From the NCBI RefSeq assembly GCF_028735875.1, contig NZ_CP117834.1, positions 2,654,001 to 2,718,000 of the forward strand: a stretch of 64,000 nucleotides of DNA, given 5' to 3'. Under the pieces are notes generated by a model, which did not search any database, had not been told where the DNA came from, and was given only the letters and a program-made list of their open reading frames with translations. Made by a program: the position numbers and the translations under genes. The first letter of the stretch is position 1. Each line of letters starts with the position of its first letter. The stretch is from Shouchella hunanensis. Its GTDB lineage: Bacteria; Bacillota; Bacilli; Bacillales; Bacillaceae_D. Shown here piece after piece: positions 39,070 to 46,945 of this stretch.

Positions 39070-39096
39070 CATAATGATGTATGATAATGATTATCA
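39057..39096 (+). promoter_or_regulatory. Fur-controlled promoter of the siderophore importer
   Basis: TTTACC (39057-39062), 17 bases, TATGAT (39080-39085). A perfect 7-1-7 Fur box, TGATAATGATTATCA (39082-39096), covers the -10 and start point. Iron-loaded Fur bound here would block transcription. Confidence 0.88.
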
Positions 39097-39131
39097 ATAG
39101 AATGTAGCAAGTGGAAGAGGAAAATGATCGT

Positions 39132-40175
39132 ATGGGGAGACAATCAGCAGTAACAACTTTAGAAAAAGCAAAAGCGCGCTCAAAACCTAGTCACGCTATT
39201 CTTGTGATCGGTTTTGGTTTTGTTCTTTTAACTGCTGCACTGGTTTTATCCATTTCGTTCGGTGCTGCTAACATTAGTGTCGGAACGATTTGGGATGCTA
39301 TTACAGCATTTAACCCAACATTAACGGAACATCAGATTATTTATGATATTCGTATACCGAGAGCGTTAGGAGCAGCATTAGTTGGGAGCTTCTTGGCTGT
39401 ATCTGGAGCTATAATGCAGGGCATGACGCGAAATCCTTTAGGAGAACCTTCCATCATGGGTGTAATGGATGGCGCTGCCCTTGCTATTGCCATTATGTTC
39501 GCATTTAGTGCAAGTATTTCTGGCACGAGCTTAATGGTGGCCGCGTTTATAGGAGCTGGTGCTGGGGCAGCATTTGTCTTTTTCATTGGGTCCTTTGCCC
39601 GAGGTGGACTGACTCCGGCTAAGCTTGCGCTAGCTGGTGTTACGGTGGGAGCTTTTTTAAGCGCAATCTCTTCTGGTATTGCGATTCACTTTAATGTCGC
39701 TCAAGATATTAGTTTTTGGTTTGCTGGTGGTTTAGCTGGCATGTCGTGGTCAAACTTGCAAATGATTGTGCCGGTCGCCATTGGCGGATTGACACTTGCT
39801 ATTATACTCTCTCGCTCTGTAACCGTATTAAGTCTAGGAGAAGATGTAGCAAAAGGATTGGGGCAACGCATTCTTCTCATTAAGACCCTTGGTGTCATTG
39901 TGGTGTTATTGCTCACAGGCGCTGGCGTAGCAGTAGCAGGTGCGATTGGTTTTATAGGGTTAGTTATACCGCATATAACAAGAGGTTTAGTAGGCGTTGA
40001 TTATCGCTATATAATCCCTTGCTCTGCAGTTCTTGGCGCATTGTTACTCGTGTTAGCGGATTTAGCTGCACGAATAATTAATGCACCGTTTGAAACACCA
40101 GTCGGGGCAATGACAGCTTTAATCGGCGTTCCGTTCTTCCTGTATCTCGCTAGACGTGACGGGAGGAAATTATAA
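39132..40175 (+). CDS. ferric-siderophore ABC transporter permease (FecCD family)
   Basis: First permease of an iron-siderophore importer. 347 residues from ATG 39132 (AGAGGAAAATGATCGT upstream); an in-frame GTG at 39111 has no ribosome site. About nine or ten membrane helices. FecCD features: RIPRALGAALVGSFLAVSGA, MQGMTRNPLGEP and, near the end, GAIGFIGLVIPHITR (coupling region). It is under the Fur box upstream. Like YfiZ/FeuB of B. subtilis in type, but the exact siderophore is not given by the sequence. Confidence 0.93.
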   Translation: MGRQSAVTTLEKAKARSKPSHAILVIGFGFVLLTAALVLSISFGAANISVGTIWDAITAFNPTLTEHQIIYDIRIPRALGAALVGSFLAVSGAIMQGMTRNPLGEPSIMGVMDGAALAIAIMFAFSASISGTSLMVAAFIGAGAGAAFVFFIGSFARGGLTPAKLALAGVTVGAFLSAISSGIAIHFNVAQDISFWFAGGLAGMSWSNLQMIVPVAIGGLTLAIILSRSVTVLSLGEDVAKGLGQRILLIKTLGVIVVLLLTGAGVAVAGAIGFIGLVIPHITRGLVGVDYRYIIPCSAVLGALLLVLADLAARIINAPFETPVGAMTALIGVPFFLYLARRDGRKL

Positions 40176-41186
40176 ATGAATGCATTAATAAAAAAGCCAG
40201 CCTTTAAAATCGTTACCCTTATCTTACTCATTCTTTTAACGTTTATCGTCTCTTTACAAACAGGAGCCATTCAAATTCAACCTGTAGATGTGCTGCGTAC
40301 ATTAGTCGGACTTGGTTCCGAACGAGATGCCCTAATTTTATTCGAATTTCGACTACCACGAATGGTTATTGCACTTCTTGTCGGTGCAGCCTTAGCCGTT
40401 TCAGGAGCTATACTACAAAGTATCTCTCAAAATGAATTAGCTGACCCTGGAATTCTTGGAATTAATACAGGAGCAGGTCTCGCTGTTGTCATTTTTATTT
40501 ACTTTTTTCAAGGCTCTTTAACAGGAGTGAGTCAACTTTCCATTTTCATTATGCCGCTCTTCGCTTTTATTGGCGCGGCATTTGCCGCCTTTTTAATTTA
40601 TATATTTGCCTGGAAAAAAGGCATTACACCAGTTCGGCTTATTTTAGTTGGTATTGCCGTCAACGCTGCATTTAGTGCTCTTCTTATCGTTATACAATTA
40701 AGAATGGCACCAAATGATTTTATGCAAGCAACGATTTGGCTTACCGGTAGTATTTGGGGGTCAACGTGGTCTTATGTAGTAACGATTTTACCTTGGTTAC
40801 TCATTTTGGTCCCTCTCGCGATCTATAAAGCGAGAACATTAAATGTGATGCAGGTCGGAACCGAATCTGCCATATCATTAGGGGTATCAATGGAAAAAGA
40901 AAGACGTTTCTTGCTTATCCTTGCAGTAGCACTAGCAGCCATTTCTGTTGCAGTAGCAGGTGGAATCGCCTTTCTAGGATTAGTTGCCCCACATATTGCT
41001 CGTAAGTTAGTTGGACCGCAGCACCAAATTATGATTCCAACAGCGACCCTTGTTGGAGCGTTCATTTTATTGGCAGCTGATATGATTGGGCGAAATGTGT
41101 TAGCACCTTCCGAAATTCCAGTTGGCATTGTCATTGCGATTATTGGTGCACCGTACTTTTTATATCTATTAATGAGAACACCTTAG
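40176..41186 (+). CDS. ferric-siderophore ABC transporter permease (FecCD family)
   Basis: Second permease, 336 residues, paralogous to its upstream neighbour. FRLPRMVIALLVGAALAVSG, LQSISQNELADPGILG and GGIAFLGLVAPHIAR are at the same places. Its ATG follows the previous stop without a gap, and its ribosome site GGGAGG lies inside the upstream gene. The two should form the heterodimeric channel. Confidence 0.93.
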   Translation: MNALIKKPAFKIVTLILLILLTFIVSLQTGAIQIQPVDVLRTLVGLGSERDALILFEFRLPRMVIALLVGAALAVSGAILQSISQNELADPGILGINTGAGLAVVIFIYFFQGSLTGVSQLSIFIMPLFAFIGAAFAAFLIYIFAWKKGITPVRLILVGIAVNAAFSALLIVIQLRMAPNDFMQATIWLTGSIWGSTWSYVVTILPWLLILVPLAIYKARTLNVMQVGTESAISLGVSMEKERRFLLILAVALAAISVAVAGGIAFLGLVAPHIARKLVGPQHQIMIPTATLVGAFILLAADMIGRNVLAPSEIPVGIVIAIIGAPYFLYLLMRTP

Positions 41187-41199
41187 GAGGGGAAAACGA

Positions 41200-42030
41200 T
41201 TGTCACGATTAACTACTGAACAGCTTTCCATTGGATACGAGAAACGAGAAATTGTACGTGATCTACATTTGAATATACCAGATGGGAAAATAACAACGAT
41301 TATTGGACCAAATGGTTGTGGGAAATCAACCATTTTAAAAACAATTGCTCGCATTTTACAAGCTTCAAAAGGGGCTGTGTATTTAGATGGAAAGTCCATT
41401 CATAAGCAGTCCACAAAAGAGATTGCGAAGAAGATGGCCGTGTTACCTCAGTCACCTGAAGCGCCAAGTGGATTAACGGTAGAAGAATTAGTGGCTTATG
41501 GTCGTTATCCCCATCAAAAAGGTTTCGGTCAATTAACAGATTACGATAAAGAGTTAATTCGTTGGTCGCTAGAGCAAACAAACATGGAAGAGTTCGCAGA
41601 CCGTTCCATTGAAGCACTGTCTGGAGGACAACGTCAGCGTGTGTGGATCGCGATGGCGCTCGCTCAAGAGACAGATATCCTCCTTTTAGATGAACCAACG
41701 ACTTATTTGGATTTAGCTCATCAGCTTGAAGTATTGCAGGTATTGGAGCGTTTAAATCAAGAGCAAAATCGGACAATCGTTATGGTTATTCATGATTTAA
41801 ATCATGCGGCTCGTTTTGCAGATTATATGGTTAGTATTCGTTCAGGTGAAATTATAAAAGAAGGAACGCCTGAAGAGGTAATGAACGCGAAAGTATTAAA
41901 AGATGTTTTTCAGATTGATGCAAGTATTGTCGCAGATCCACGCACAGGGAAACCAGTTTGTCTGACATACGATCTTCTTCAAAAAGAAGTCACTCTAAGA
42001 CAAGAAGAAAAAATACCAGCGTATGCATAA
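41200..42030 (+). CDS. ferric-siderophore ABC transporter ATP-binding protein (FecE/YusV-like)
   Basis: ATPase of the importer, 276 residues. Walker A GPNGCGKST, Q-loop LPQSPEAPSGLTVEELVAYG, signature LSGGQRQRVWIAMAL, Walker B ILLLDEPTTYLDL, H-loop VIHDLNHA. TTG start behind TAGGAGGGG. No binding protein gene accompanies the operon; one encoded elsewhere must deliver the substrate. Confidence 0.94.
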   Translation: MSRLTTEQLSIGYEKREIVRDLHLNIPDGKITTIIGPNGCGKSTILKTIARILQASKGAVYLDGKSIHKQSTKEIAKKMAVLPQSPEAPSGLTVEELVAYGRYPHQKGFGQLTDYDKELIRWSLEQTNMEEFADRSIEALSGGQRQRVWIAMALAQETDILLLDEPTTYLDLAHQLEVLQVLERLNQEQNRTIVMVIHDLNHAARFADYMVSIRSGEIIKEGTPEEVMNAKVLKDVFQIDASIVADPRTGKPVCLTYDLLQKEVTLRQEEKIPAYA

Positions 42031-42325: not shown

Positions 42326-43351
42326 ATGAATAAACAAATGAACTGGACTAATCTTACTGAAAAACAAAAGGAACTGCAGTTCTCTGGGAGTATCTATGTA
42401 CGCAAGAATGGTATTGAACTAATCTCAGATGGCTTCGGTCATGCAATCCGTTCAGAAAAAATAAAAAATCAACCACAAACTCGTTTTTCCATTGCGTCTG
42501 GTAGCAAAATCTTTACGTCTGTTGCCATTTGTAAGCTAGTGGAAGAAGGGAAACTCACATTCGACACGACTCTTAAAAACTGCTTACGTGTGGATCTCCC
42601 GTATTTTGACAACTCGATTACGATCCATCATCTCTTAACCCATACATCAGGAATTCCAGACTACTTTGATGAGGAGAAAATGGATGACTATGAGGAGCTC
42701 TGGGAGACTTTCCCTATGTATCAAGTCCGTTCTGCAAAAGACTTCCTGCCAATGTTTCGGTTAGAAAAAATGCAAGATAAGGTTGGTCGGTCTTTTAAGT
42801 ACAATAATACAGGCTATATTCTTTTAGGACTCGTTATTGAGGCAATAAGTGGAATGGATTTCGATGCCTATATTGATAAAACGATCTTTACGAAGATTGG
42901 TATGACGAATTCAGGCTATTTTTCAGTGGATGAACTTCCTGGGAATGTTGCATGTGGCTATATTGAAAAACCAGATGGAACAGTGAAAACAAATGTGTTT
43001 TCACTACCTGCAAAAGGCGGACCAGATGGCGGTGCTTATGTGACTGCACTTGATATAGGTATTTTCTGGGAAGCGCTTATGAATGGTAAACTTTTGTCTG
43101 CTGAAATGACGCGAAACTTTATGGCTCCTCAAGAACATGTTGATGAAGACATATTCTATGGGTATATCGGATATATGGAGTCAAATGAACAGGGCGTCGT
43201 AAAATTTATACAAATGGGCTATGATCCAGGCGTTAATTATCGTTCTGTCTATTACCCCGAGCAAGGTCTTACGATCGTTGTTTGTTCAAATCAATCAAAT
43301 GGTGCTTATGAAATTCTTAAAGAATTGGAACGAGTAACCGTAAATAAATAA
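42326..43351 (+). CDS. serine hydrolase, beta-lactamase/penicillin-binding protein family (S12)
   Basis: 341 residues of the class C beta-lactamase-like family. Catalytic SxxK is S58-G-S-K61 (SIASGSKIF), the Tyr motif is Y159-N-N (FKYNNTGYILLG), and the third motif region is MGYDPGVNYRS, in place of the usual HGG-like box. HHLLTHTSGIPDYF is typical. No signal peptide, so it is probably cytoplasmic and an esterase or peptidase instead of an antibiotic-resistance enzyme. Start ATG behind CAGGAGGAATAAAA. Confidence 0.9.
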   Translation: MNKQMNWTNLTEKQKELQFSGSIYVRKNGIELISDGFGHAIRSEKIKNQPQTRFSIASGSKIFTSVAICKLVEEGKLTFDTTLKNCLRVDLPYFDNSITIHHLLTHTSGIPDYFDEEKMDDYEELWETFPMYQVRSAKDFLPMFRLEKMQDKVGRSFKYNNTGYILLGLVIEAISGMDFDAYIDKTIFTKIGMTNSGYFSVDELPGNVACGYIEKPDGTVKTNVFSLPAKGGPDGGAYVTALDIGIFWEALMNGKLLSAEMTRNFMAPQEHVDEDIFYGYIGYMESNEQGVVKFIQMGYDPGVNYRSVYYPEQGLTIVVCSNQSNGAYEILKELERVTVNK

Positions 43352-43362
43352 TGAGAGAATAA

Positions 43363-43393
43363 GGGCAAATCCTTTAGATTTGCTCTTTTTTTC
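43363..43393 (+). terminator. terminator of the serine hydrolase gene
   Basis: Arms GGGCAAATC (43363-43371) and GATTTGCTC (43377-43385) with a five-base loop, then eight T. Confidence 0.92.
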
Positions 43394-43454
43394 TTCAAAT
43401 TAGAACTTGTGCAAGCCGTTTCGCCTTTAGTGACAAAAAAGAAAGAGAAACCCA

Positions 43455-43483
43455 TTGACATTGATAATGATATTCGTTATCAT
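43455..43483 (+). promoter_or_regulatory. sigma-A promoter with overlapping Fur box, for a small RNA
   Basis: Consensus -35 TTGACA (43455-43460), exactly 17 bases, -10 TATCAT (43478-43483). The spacer and -10 contain GATAATGATATTCGTTATC (about 43463-43481), the 19-base Fur consensus with two mismatches. No coding frame of useful size follows before a terminator at 43532-43567. Confidence 0.85.
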
Positions 43484-43489
43484 TTAGAA

Positions 43490-43567
43490 AGAACGTGACA
43501 CATACACGTCTAGTTAATAGACCCCTTTTGGACCCTTGCAAAGCCTAATGCAGGGGTTTTTTTGTTA
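43490..43567 (+). ncRNA. fsrA: candidate Fur-repressed small RNA, FsrA-like
   Basis: About 78 bases from the predicted start to the end of the T run. The 5' part forms a small stem, ACGTG (43492-43496) with CACGT (43504-43508). A single-stranded C-rich linker follows, ACCCCTTTTGGACCC, which could pair with G-rich ribosome sites. The 3' end is a terminator: ACCCTTGCA with TGCAGGGGT, then TTTTTT. B. subtilis FsrA is a Fur-repressed RNA of about 84 bases with C-rich unpaired regions that blocks translation of iron-using enzymes. Structure, size and control agree; sequence identity was not compared. Confidence 0.72.
43532..43567 (+). terminator. terminator of the candidate small RNA
   Basis: Nine-base stem ACCCTTGCA (43532-43540) and TGCAGGGGT (43549-43557) with one G-U pair, loop AAGCCTAA, then a run of seven T. 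Confidence 0.92.
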
Positions 43568-43653
43568 TTTGGAGTGACGATTCTTAGTTGACACATGAAA
43601 GGTGTAACTGTGGGTAATCCTAATCGTATGATGCTAGAAAAGGGGCTAAACTG

Positions 43654-43809
43654 ATGATTACGGATGACGAACGACTTATTTTTGAGAGAGAATTAGTGCA
43701 GCTTGAAATGGAAAAGCAAAGCAACCAACTCAATAAACGCTATAAAATGTACATAGAGGAACAGATTGAGCTGCTAGAGAGTGTTATATATGGAGATAAA
43801 CAAGAATAA
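43654..43809 (+). CDS. 51-residue charged protein, probable coiled coil
   Basis: MITDDERLIFERELVQLEME continues as a highly charged helix with heptad-spaced Leu/Ile/Tyr (L8, I9, L14, L17, then Y, I, I, L, L, V). It ends YGDKQE. Ribosome site AAAAGGGGC lies nine bases before the ATG, and a terminator follows. No membrane segment. Not recognised; perhaps a small regulatory or scaffold protein. Confidence 0.6.
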   Translation: MITDDERLIFERELVQLEMEKQSNQLNKRYKMYIEEQIELLESVIYGDKQE

Positions 43810-43850
43810 GTAGAGGCTGTTTCCAATTCTAGAAATATCATATAAAACGT

Positions 43851-43896
43851 AAAAGCTCTTCTAATGCTTAAGTGCAAAAAAGATAGAGCTTTTTTG
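43851..43896 (+). terminator. terminator of the 51-residue protein gene
   Basis: Arms AAAAGCTCT (43851-43859) and AGAGCTTTT (43885-43893) with a long loop containing a second small stem (GCTTAAGTGC region), then T run. Confidence 0.75.
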
Positions 43897-43929
43897 AGTG
43901 AATTTCCGTTAATTTCACGCAATGGATAC

Positions 43930-43958
43930 ACGACATGCGTGGCTAACTTTGTTATAAT
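43930..43958 (+). promoter_or_regulatory. sigma-A promoter of the pcrB-pcrA-ligA-camS operon
   Basis: ACGACA (43930-43935), 17 bases, consensus TATAAT (43953-43958), about 60 bases before pcrB. The -35 matches only GACA. Confidence 0.65.
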
Positions 43959-44017
43959 AATGTGCAGAACGAACGTGCGTATATGTGCTCGTTAAAGGGA
44001 GGCACGCGTGAAAACCG

Positions 44018-44716
44018 ATGATGAATAACATAAATGAGTGGTCGCATGTATTTAAGCTCGACCCTAATAAAGAATTAACAATAGATCAACTAGAACGTTT
44101 ATGCGAATCAGGAACCGACGCGGTGATTGTTGGTGGAACTGATGGTGTGACGTTAGATAATACATTAGAACTACTTGTACAAGTGCGACGATACCCCATA
44201 ACCGTTGCGCTGGAAGTCTCGAATATGGATTCCATTACACCTGGATTTGATTATTATTTAATTCCAACGGTTTTAAATAGCCGCAACCCTAACTGGATTA
44301 TTGGTCAACATCACCAGGCAATGAAGGAGTATGGCGAATTAATTGATTGGGATACGTTCATTCCTGAGGGCTATTGTGTGTTGAATCCCAATGCAAAGGT
44401 AGCAGAGTTGACGGATGCTACCACTGACTTGTCAGTTGAAGATGTAACGGCTTATGCAAGACTGGCAGAAAACATGTTACACTTGCCGTTCTTCTATATT
44501 GAATATAGTGGACAGAAAGGTTCTGTTGATGTGGTGAAGGAAGCGAAAGCTGTCCTCTCTTCAACAAAACTAATTTATGGTGGTGGAATTGAAACGGCAG
44601 AAGAGGCAAAGCAATATGCGCAGTATGCTGATGTGACAGTTGTCGGTAATGCTATTTATACAAATTTTAAAGAAGCAGTGAAGACAGTAAAAGCAGTAAA
44701 AGGTGGTGCCTATTAA
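44018..44716 (+). CDS. pcrB: heptaprenylglyceryl phosphate synthase
   Basis: TIM-barrel prenyltransferase that joins glycerol-1-phosphate to heptaprenyl diphosphate. 232 residues, closely matching B. subtilis PcrB (EWSHVFKLDPNKEL, GTDAVIVGGTDGV, FFYIEYSGQKG, KLIYGGGIETAEEAKQYA). ATG 44018 or 44021 both fit. The only good ribosome site, AAAGGGAGG, is 15-18 bases upstream and better placed for a GTG at 44008, whose frame ends after six codons. The gene directly abuts pcrA. Confidence 0.95.
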   Translation: MMNNINEWSHVFKLDPNKELTIDQLERLCESGTDAVIVGGTDGVTLDNTLELLVQVRRYPITVALEVSNMDSITPGFDYYLIPTVLNSRNPNWIIGQHHQAMKEYGELIDWDTFIPEGYCVLNPNAKVAELTDATTDLSVEDVTAYARLAENMLHLPFFYIEYSGQKGSVDVVKEAKAVLSSTKLIYGGGIETAEEAKQYAQYADVTVVGNAIYTNFKEAVKTVKAVKGGAY

Positions 44717-46945
44717 ATGCAAGATACAATCATAGAACGAATGTTAGAAGGTCTAAACCCAGAGCAACGAAAAGCGGTTGTACACACAGATGGTCCAGTC
44801 TTACTTATGGCTGGAGCTGGTAGCGGAAAGACGCGTGTTTTAACACACCGAATTAGCTATTTGTTACGTCATAATCAAACGCCTCCATGGGCAGTGCTTG
44901 CCTTGACGTTTACAAATAAAGCAGCACGAGAAATGAAAGATCGAGTTGCGCAATTAGTTGGTCCAATCGCTGAAGATATTTGGATTTCCACTTTCCACTC
45001 CATGTGCGTTCGTATTTTAAGAAGAGACATTGATCGAATTGGCTACAATCGTAATTTCTCCATTCTAGATTCGGCAGATCAACTTTCCGTTATTAAGCAA
45101 ATTTTAAAAGCACAAAACATTGATACAAAAAAGTTTGATCCTAAAGCAATACTTAGCATGATTTCTAGTGCGAAAAACGAACTTAGATCTGCGAAAGCTT
45201 TCGCGAAAACAGCTGAAGGCATGTTTGATCAAGTAGCCGCAGATGTGTATTTAGAATTTGAGAAGCGTTTAAAAGTAAACAATGCGTTAGACTTTGATGA
45301 TTTAATCATGAAGACGATTGAATTGTTCAGTGATGTGCCGGAAGTCCTCGAATTTTATCAACGCAAATTTCAATACATTCATGTCGATGAGTATCAAGAT
45401 ACAAATAAAGCGCAATATAAGCTTATAAAGCTAATGGGCGACCGTCTACAAAATATTTGTGTTGTAGGTGATTCCGATCAGTCGATATACAAATGGCGAG
45501 GAGCGGATATTCAGAATATCCTCTCGTTTGAAAAAGACTATCCAGATGCAACAGTCATTATGCTAGAGCAAAACTATCGTTCCACAAAAACGATCTTGCA
45601 AGCTGCTAATAAAGTGATTGGAAATAACGGGAACCGGAAGCCGAAAAATCTTTGGACAGAAAATGACCAAGGGAAAAAGATAACCGTTTATGAAGCGGCA
45701 TCAGAGCAAGCTGAGGCACAATTTGTTGTGGAAAAAATAAAAGAAACAGCTGCAAAAGAGTCAAGTTTTTCCTATGCTGATGTGGCTATTCTTTACCGGA
45801 CGAATGCCCAATCTCGAATCATTGAGGAATTCTTTATTAAATCGAATCTAGAATACACGATTGTTGGCGGCACAAAGTTCTACGATCGTAAAGAAATTAA
45901 AGATGTTCTTGCTTATCTGCGATTAGTGTCCAATCCAGAAGACGACATTAGTTTAGCACGAATCGTTAATGTTCCAAAAAGAGGAATAGGAGCCACAACG
46001 GTAGATAAAATCGCTGCATACGCCACTCAAAATGGTCTGTCGATGTACCGGGCTTTAGCTGAAATTGATCATATTGGTGTGACAGCTCGAGCTAAAACAA
46101 AACTTATTGAATTTCGTGATCAAGTTAGCGGGTGGGTTCAACAACAAGATTATTTATCGGTAACAGAGCTTGTTGAAGAGCTTCTAGACAAGGTAGGTTA
46201 CCGAGATATGTTAAAAGCAGAACAAACGATAGAAGCCCAATCACGCTTAGAAAATATTGATGAATTTATTTCTGTTACGCAGGAATTTGAAAAGCGTAGT
46301 GAGGAAAAGGACTTAGTTTCTTTCCTAACAGATTTAGCTTTAGTTGCAGATATTGACCAACTTGATGATGATAAGGTGGAAGCACCTAAAGAGGCTATCA
46401 CACTTATGACCCTTCATTCAGCTAAAGGATTAGAGTTTCCTTACGTGTTTCTAATTGGGATGGAAGAAGGTATTTTCCCTCACAATCGTTCATTATTTGA
46501 TGATGAAGAAATGGAAGAAGAGCGACGTTTAGCATATGTTGGTATAACAAGAGCTGAAAAAGAGTTGTATGTAACGAGTGCAAAAATGAGAACATTATAC
46601 GGACGAACCAATACGAATCCATCGTCACGTTTTATTGCAGAAATTCCAGAAGACTGTAGGGAAGAGCACGGTGTTCCGGTTTGGAGTAGAGGGAGTAAAC
46701 AAGGAAATAGCGCAGCTTCAATGGCAGCAAAGCGAACAAGCGCCATGTCTTCAAGGATGACCAATACAGGTGGAGACAGCTTTGAATGGGCGGTTGGCGA
46801 TAAAGCGTCTCACAAAAAATGGGGCGTCGGTACAGTTGTTAGTATAAAAGGAGAAGGGGATTCAGTCGAACTTGATATTGCGTTTACGCCACCAACAGGG
46901 ATTAAACGATTGTTCGCTAAGTTTGCCCCGATTACGAAAGTATAA
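44717..46945 (+). CDS. pcrA: ATP-dependent DNA helicase PcrA (UvrD/Rep family)
   Basis: Superfamily 1A 3'-5' helicase for plasmid and repair replication. 742 residues. Motif [16 protein letters not shown], motif [10 protein letters not shown], motif [19 protein letters not shown], motif [18 protein letters not shown], motif [18 protein letters not shown]. The C-terminus is the Tudor-like RNA-polymerase-binding domain ([19 protein letters not shown]). Same order with pcrB and ligA as in B. subtilis. Confidence 0.98.

Follow-up and report, generated by a model that had tools for sequence, protein, structure and literature searches.

A conserved, predicted small RNA gene with a Fur-box promoter upstream of pcrB in Shouchella

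The locus between fecE and pcrB

We analysed a stretch of 64 kb (the window) of the host genome (G000, 4.06 Mb, one contig; positions 2654001-2718000), in which genes for an iron-siderophore transporter of the FecCD, FecCD, FecE type (39111-42030, forward strand), preceded by a Fur box with three mismatches (39083-39101), end 1.4 kb upstream of the RNA described here. Downstream of it lie pcrB and pcrA (44018-46945, forward strand), its usual neighbours across the genus. The PcrB protein is 100% identical to its counterpart in Shouchella miscanthi AK13 and 98% identical to that in S. oshimensis, which places the host in Shouchella. A gene of the beta-lactamase fold (42326-43351, forward strand) sits between fecE and the RNA; among the 13 genus loci it is present only in G000, G002 and G004 and therefore looks like a later insertion. 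A terminator-like site at 43361-43387 belongs to the preceding gene.

The promoter, on the forward strand, is of the sigma-A type, with TTGACA at 43455-43460 and TATCAT at 43478-43483 separated by a 17-nt spacer, so that 11 of the 12 consensus letters are matched. It is the best of four promoter-like sites found in 43300-44050 (shuffled sequence gives 2.3 on average), and the same pattern stands at the corresponding position in all 13 genus genomes, the host counted. Its spacer and -10 element are overlapped by a predicted Fur box (43463-43481) with two mismatches to GATAATGATAATCATTATC, which we take to be the Fur box consensus. At up to three mismatches the window holds three such boxes against 0.08 expected, while the whole genome has 23 matches at 17 places and the reversed pattern 3; the place at 43463-43481 is one of six in the genome with a two-mismatch box. 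Open reading frames (ORFs) of at least 40 residues and having a ribosome site were sought on both strands up to about 380 nt from each of the 17 places. At 15 of these there is one of at least 150 residues, and several of the products resemble lipoproteins, flavodoxins or reductases as judged by eye. The two exceptions are L052, with a doubtful ORF of 45 residues, and the RNA locus itself, where the nearest candidate is an ORF of 51 residues past the terminator.

The RNA predicted to start at this promoter is about 74 nt long (43490-43563, forward strand), with its presumed first nucleotide 7 nt after the -10 element. It opens with a predicted 5' hairpin, ACGUG-ACACAUA-CACGU (43493-43509), continues into a C-rich core, UAGACCCCUUUU (43518-43529), whose predicted partners are the leader of sdhC and the ribosome site of acnA, and closes with a Rho-independent terminator (43530-43563), formed by a stem of 11 pairs (43530-43559) and a T-run. 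Three terminator-like sites were found against 0.7 expected, and the RNA folds better than its shuffles (z -3.13; 1 of 200 equally good). Within the core, GACCCC is predicted to be unpaired with a probability of 0.30-0.95 in the host; six of the 12 RNAs in the alignment have a value near 0 for GACC. A reading as the message of a small peptide was rejected, as no ribosome site is visible before any of the five start codons within the RNA.

The original prediction for this locus had described most of these features, and they stand: the promoter, the two-mismatch Fur box over it, a short RNA with a 5' stem and a strong terminator, the lack of a plausible ORF, a terminator boundary upstream and an iron-siderophore operon 1.4 kb away. 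Of the C-rich unpaired linker that it proposed, the C-richness is there, while the linker is not wholly unpaired.

Conservation in Shouchella

A DNA search gave a match in all 13 genus genomes, and in 12 of them the match includes the promoter, the Fur box and the RNA; G000 and G002, both among these 12, are one species. Promoter, Fur box, 5' hairpin, C-rich core and terminator are all present in these 12 of 13 genomes, and a Fur box with two to three mismatches lies directly 5' of the RNA in the 12 (host counted) as well as in G003. When the 12 RNAs are aligned, the 5' hairpin is nearly invariant (in 11 of 12), the core reads GACCCC(C), with GACCCC kept in 12 of 12, and the terminator sequence is variable. 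Formal covariation in RNAalifold is small (-0.23 kcal/mol; changes on both sides in two of nine pairs, and in none of the pairs of the 5' hairpin), partly because the terminator arms align poorly. Read singly, every RNA has its own well-paired terminator despite the differing stem sequences, for example CCCCUACA/UGUAGGGG, CCUCCGC/GCGGAGG and CCUUUGCC/GGCAAAGG.

Could the arrangement be an accident, in which a fortuitous hairpin happens to follow a Fur box that serves some other gene? The RNA body is conserved in 12 of the 13 genomes, with terminator arms that differ and yet pair, and this makes an accident extremely unlikely.

The gene downstream of the RNA is pcrB at 10 of the 12 RNA-bearing loci, and at 11 of 13 if G003 (L016) is included. 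At the remaining two (L008 and L009, from G005 and G008) the RNA lies between fecE, upstream, and the small ORF, and the 1.5 kb retrieved beyond the match contains nothing that matches PcrB. The small ORF (51 residues in the host, 43654-43806, forward strand, beyond the terminator) has no Pfam or NCBIfam match and is detected at seven of the 13 genus loci, the host counted, with 49-100% identity. With this ORF in seven loci and pcrB in 11, one might see in the RNA not a stand-alone gene but a leader or attenuator, under Fur control, of the small ORF and pcrB. We regard this as very unlikely: a strong terminator ends the RNA ahead of the ORF, five RNA-bearing genomes (G001, G006, G007, G010 and G011) have no detected copy of it (E <= 1e-3), and pcrB is not known as an iron gene.

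A covariance model, R1, was built from the 12 genus RNAs; its strong matches (E <= 1.1e-12) are in these same 12 genomes, which are its training set, so they restate the DNA search. In G003 it gives only E 0.57, and strong matches are absent from the 28 other genomes of the family. The 15 weak matches outside the genus that were fetched (L075-L089) all lack a Fur box (at least seven mismatches) and were taken as chance. G003 has a genome of 2.6 Mb and keeps the promoter, the Fur box and the place upstream of pcrB, with a diverged RNA body that carries TAAGATAAGATCCCCTTTTCACC and its own terminator; fecE and fecCD matches are absent at this locus. In G017, of another genus (g2), the stretch from fecE to pcrB contains no Fur box and no C-rich RNA.

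A second Fur-box RNA of about 70 nt, with the core GTAAGATCCCCCTTATCCC, is present in G006, G010 and G011 (L017, L092 and L091, respectively) and adjoins a germination-protein-like gene in both loci that were read (L017 and L092). No copy of it appeared among the 17 host loci with a Fur box that were retrieved. The core AAGATCCCCC of the second RNA of the S. clausii-like genomes is nearly common to the single RNA of G003 (AAGATCCCC).

A pattern search (Fur promoter, CCCC, T-run) over 397 genomes of the order gave matches in at least 109 of them; among the matches listed, those other than the FsrA copies and the Shouchella RNA were judged by eye to be chance. A literature search, mostly of open-access papers, found no report recognisable as this Shouchella RNA. 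As judged from sequence, the locus is a conserved and unlisted small RNA gene with a Fur box.

Predicted pairing with sdhC and acnA

What might such an RNA do? We propose, with a probability of about 0.7, that 43490-43563 is the gene of a trans-acting, Fur-repressed, iron-sparing small RNA that targets sdhC and probably acnA. Iron-loaded Fur would occupy the promoter and hold the gene off; in iron shortage Fur would leave, and the RNA would be made as far as its own terminator. The C-rich stretch would then pair with G-rich leader sites in the mRNAs of iron-costly enzymes, the first being sdhC (succinate dehydrogenase), at a site some 35-47 nt upstream of its start codon, with acnA (aconitase) as a probable second, at a site over the ribosome-binding sequence. 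Pairing would lower translation or stability of the targets, and iron would thus be spared. As the sdhC site lies upstream of the ribosome site, control of sdhC would have to work by blocking of a standby site, by a duplex that spreads, or through decay of the RNA. C-rich regions of FsrA, IsrR and RoxS are described as binding G-rich stretches, in many cases the ribosome site (PMC8464778, PMC9410917, PMC8216469), and the sole FsrA pairing given as proven in vivo, that with gltAB, is described as not using the C-rich regions (PMC8464778).

Pairing was ranked by plain duplex energies, which leave out the cost of opening structure, against a background of 391 genes taken by a simple ORF caller from the window and 20 further stretches, 464 kb in all. 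The sdhC gene was located in all 13 genus genomes. In the host its duplex, at -25.9 kcal/mol, stands ahead of all 391 background genes, by a narrow lead, the two lowest background duplexes reaching -24.6 kcal/mol, for a doubtful ORF of the window, and -22.4 kcal/mol; this rank is matched by none of 100 shuffled linkers of the same composition. Across the genus, the number of shuffles as low for the sdhC leader is 0 of 100 in each of the four host-clade genomes, 1 in G006, 6 in G001 and 7 in both G010 and G011; the match is weak in G005 (24), G008 (19), G012 (13) and G007 (24), and the site is absent in G003 (166 of 200). A GGGGT motif about 35-39 nt before the sdhC start codon is found in 11 of the 13 genomes, the leader reading AAAAGGGGTAA in the host's clade (four genomes) and GGGGTCT in the seven others. 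The motif is absent in G003, and absent at that place in G007, where GGGGGTCC occurs farther upstream, possibly within the promoter. The RNAs of the host's clade have CCCCUUUU, matching AAAAGGGG, and the remaining eight have CCCCC.

The aconitase-type genes acnA and leuC were located by the Pfam aconitase family, and acnA in the 41 family genomes by TIGR01341. In all 11 RNA-bearing genomes with a readable acnA start (in G008 the contig ends ahead of it) the acnA ribosome site is GGGTCT, the complement of AGACCC in the core. The rank of acnA in the host is ordinary: 40 of the 391 background genes give a duplex as low, and 7 of 100 shuffled linkers attain this rank. Shuffles as low number 10, 10, 14 and 26 per 100 in the four host-clade genomes, and 0-3 per 100 in the other seven of the 11. 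In G003 the RNA (AAGATCCCC) and the acnA site (GGGGATCTT; the site reads GGGGATCT) form a duplex of -22.4 kcal/mol, with 0 of 200 shuffles as low. When linkers are swapped between genomes, own pairs are not favoured and the G003 linker pairs equally well with acnA of the other genomes; we therefore do not count the G003 pair as proven co-change. Outside the genus, GGGTCT is present in the acnA site of four of 28 genomes, all from g2 (four of its five), and the remaining 24 lack it. The g2 genomes yielded no such RNA, the pcrB place itself having been examined in G017, a g2 genome lacking GGGTCT. Over the whole host genome, RGRGGGTCT shortly before an ATG is not enriched (seven sites, five for the reversed control). 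Four of the seven precede plausible genes, by eye acnA, a 277-residue protein, an OppD-like ATPase and an 89-residue protein, and the three besides acnA are not known iron genes.

The third suggested target, leuC, was rejected in the host, where 367 of the 391 background genes are as low; shuffles as low number 27-100 per 100 in ten of the 11 genomes and 3 per 100, a moderate match, in G005. The targets originally put forward fared unequally: sdhC is supported by its rank in the host, leuC has no site there, and aconitase pairs unremarkably in the host and strongly in seven relatives.

These numbers bear on a further reading, in which the RNA is real and Fur-controlled and acts mainly on other mRNAs or on a protein, its matches to sdhC and acnA being such as any C-rich RNA would give against G-rich leaders. 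The ordinary rank of acnA in the host, the near equality of RGRGGGTCT with its control, the unspecific swaps and the presence of GGGTCT in g2 genomes all speak for it, and the known FsrA targets gltAB, lutABC and dctP lie outside the genes that we compared. The position of sdhC ahead of the entire background, out of reach of every shuffled linker, speaks against it, and we consider this reading rather unlikely.

Relation to FsrA and other iron-sparing RNAs

The original prediction had named this RNA the host's FsrA. The FsrA-like way of working is favoured by the genus conservation and the predicted sdhC pairing, less firmly by acnA; membership of the family is not borne out. A scan of the whole window against Rfam gave no match over the gathering score (80 bits for FsrA, RF02273), and no FsrA row appeared between 43300 and 43700 when E values up to 10 were allowed; 17 low-scoring rows of other families obtained there at this loose threshold were taken as chance. 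In the host genome the FsrA model has three weak matches elsewhere, the best at 23.6 bits, none of which follows a Fur box of five or fewer mismatches within 200 nt. Six weak FsrA matches (L002-L004 and L038-L040), all lacking a Fur box of five or fewer mismatches in the preceding 200 nt, were likewise attributed to chance. The model exceeds its cut-off in none of the 41 family genomes and in five of 398 genomes of the class, all of one genus, presumably Bacillus, because the control genome that exceeds the cut-off is that of B. subtilis. These five loci have a Fur box, a 5' hairpin, a CCCC-AACCCC linker and a terminator. R1 in turn detects none of the five FsrA RNAs, and its only two weak matches lie elsewhere in L043. 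FsrA homologues have been described across Bacilli, Staphylococci and Listeria (PMC12871923), an account that our searches fit less well than a second one.

The Shouchella RNA and FsrA of B. subtilis are alike in having a predicted Fur box on the promoter, a 5' hairpin, a C-rich linker (partly paired in Shouchella) and a terminator, and in size (about 75-84 nt for FsrA and about 74 nt here), and the -10 context TATCATTT is common to the five FsrA copies and the Shouchella RNA. The predicted pairing with sdhC is also as in FsrA, and pairing with aconitase, which is less firmly supported, may be a further likeness. They differ in the leuC site, which the host lacks, and in their neighbours, which are EAL-domain and Mn-catalase-like genes for FsrA (before and after it, respectively, at L041, named by eye from translations) but fecCDE and pcrB in Shouchella. 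Covariance models give no match between the two in either direction. The layout, in short, is common, and sequence and place are not; the RNA is probably FsrA-like in its working, and the comparison does not establish it as FsrA by descent.

Two histories can be set against each other here. The RNA might be a true FsrA orthologue, with the same Fur promoter, 5' hairpin, C-rich linker and terminator, which has diverged beyond recognition and moved elsewhere. The shared layout, the nearly equal size, the identical -10 context and the predicted sdhC pairing would fit such an origin. The lack of an FsrA-model match at this locus and of any over the cut-off in the family, the failure of R1 on all five FsrA RNAs and the unlike gene neighbours (at L041, the locus read) lead us to think it unlikely. 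It is quite possible instead, and we suggest this tentatively, that Shouchella evolved an iron-sparing RNA of its own, unrelated by descent to FsrA or IsrR, fixed before pcrB and converging on sdhC and aconitase, to which the S. clausii-like genomes added the second Fur-box RNA.

Other iron-sparing RNAs offer parallels for the proposed function. RyhB and PrrF are Fur-repressed, as the Shouchella RNA is in our reading; they have no Rfam match over the gathering score in the window, and they are described as dependent on Hfq (PMC9410917). IsrR of Staphylococcus aureus is likewise iron-repressed, with C-rich regions that are described as pairing with the ribosome sites of mRNAs for iron enzymes, and aconitase is named among shared targets (PMC9410917). 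It is reported to have three stem-loops and three C-rich regions, and its authors consider it not orthologous to FsrA (PMC9410917). In our class sample the Rfam FsrA model reaches one genus of 146, and the iron-sparing RNAs of most Bacilli, if present, are therefore unlisted. Such an RNA can be revealed by a Fur box, a C-rich core, a terminator and a conserved place taken together, and a defined RNA with two defined candidate targets now allows one to ask whether iron-sparing RNAs share descent or arise anew.
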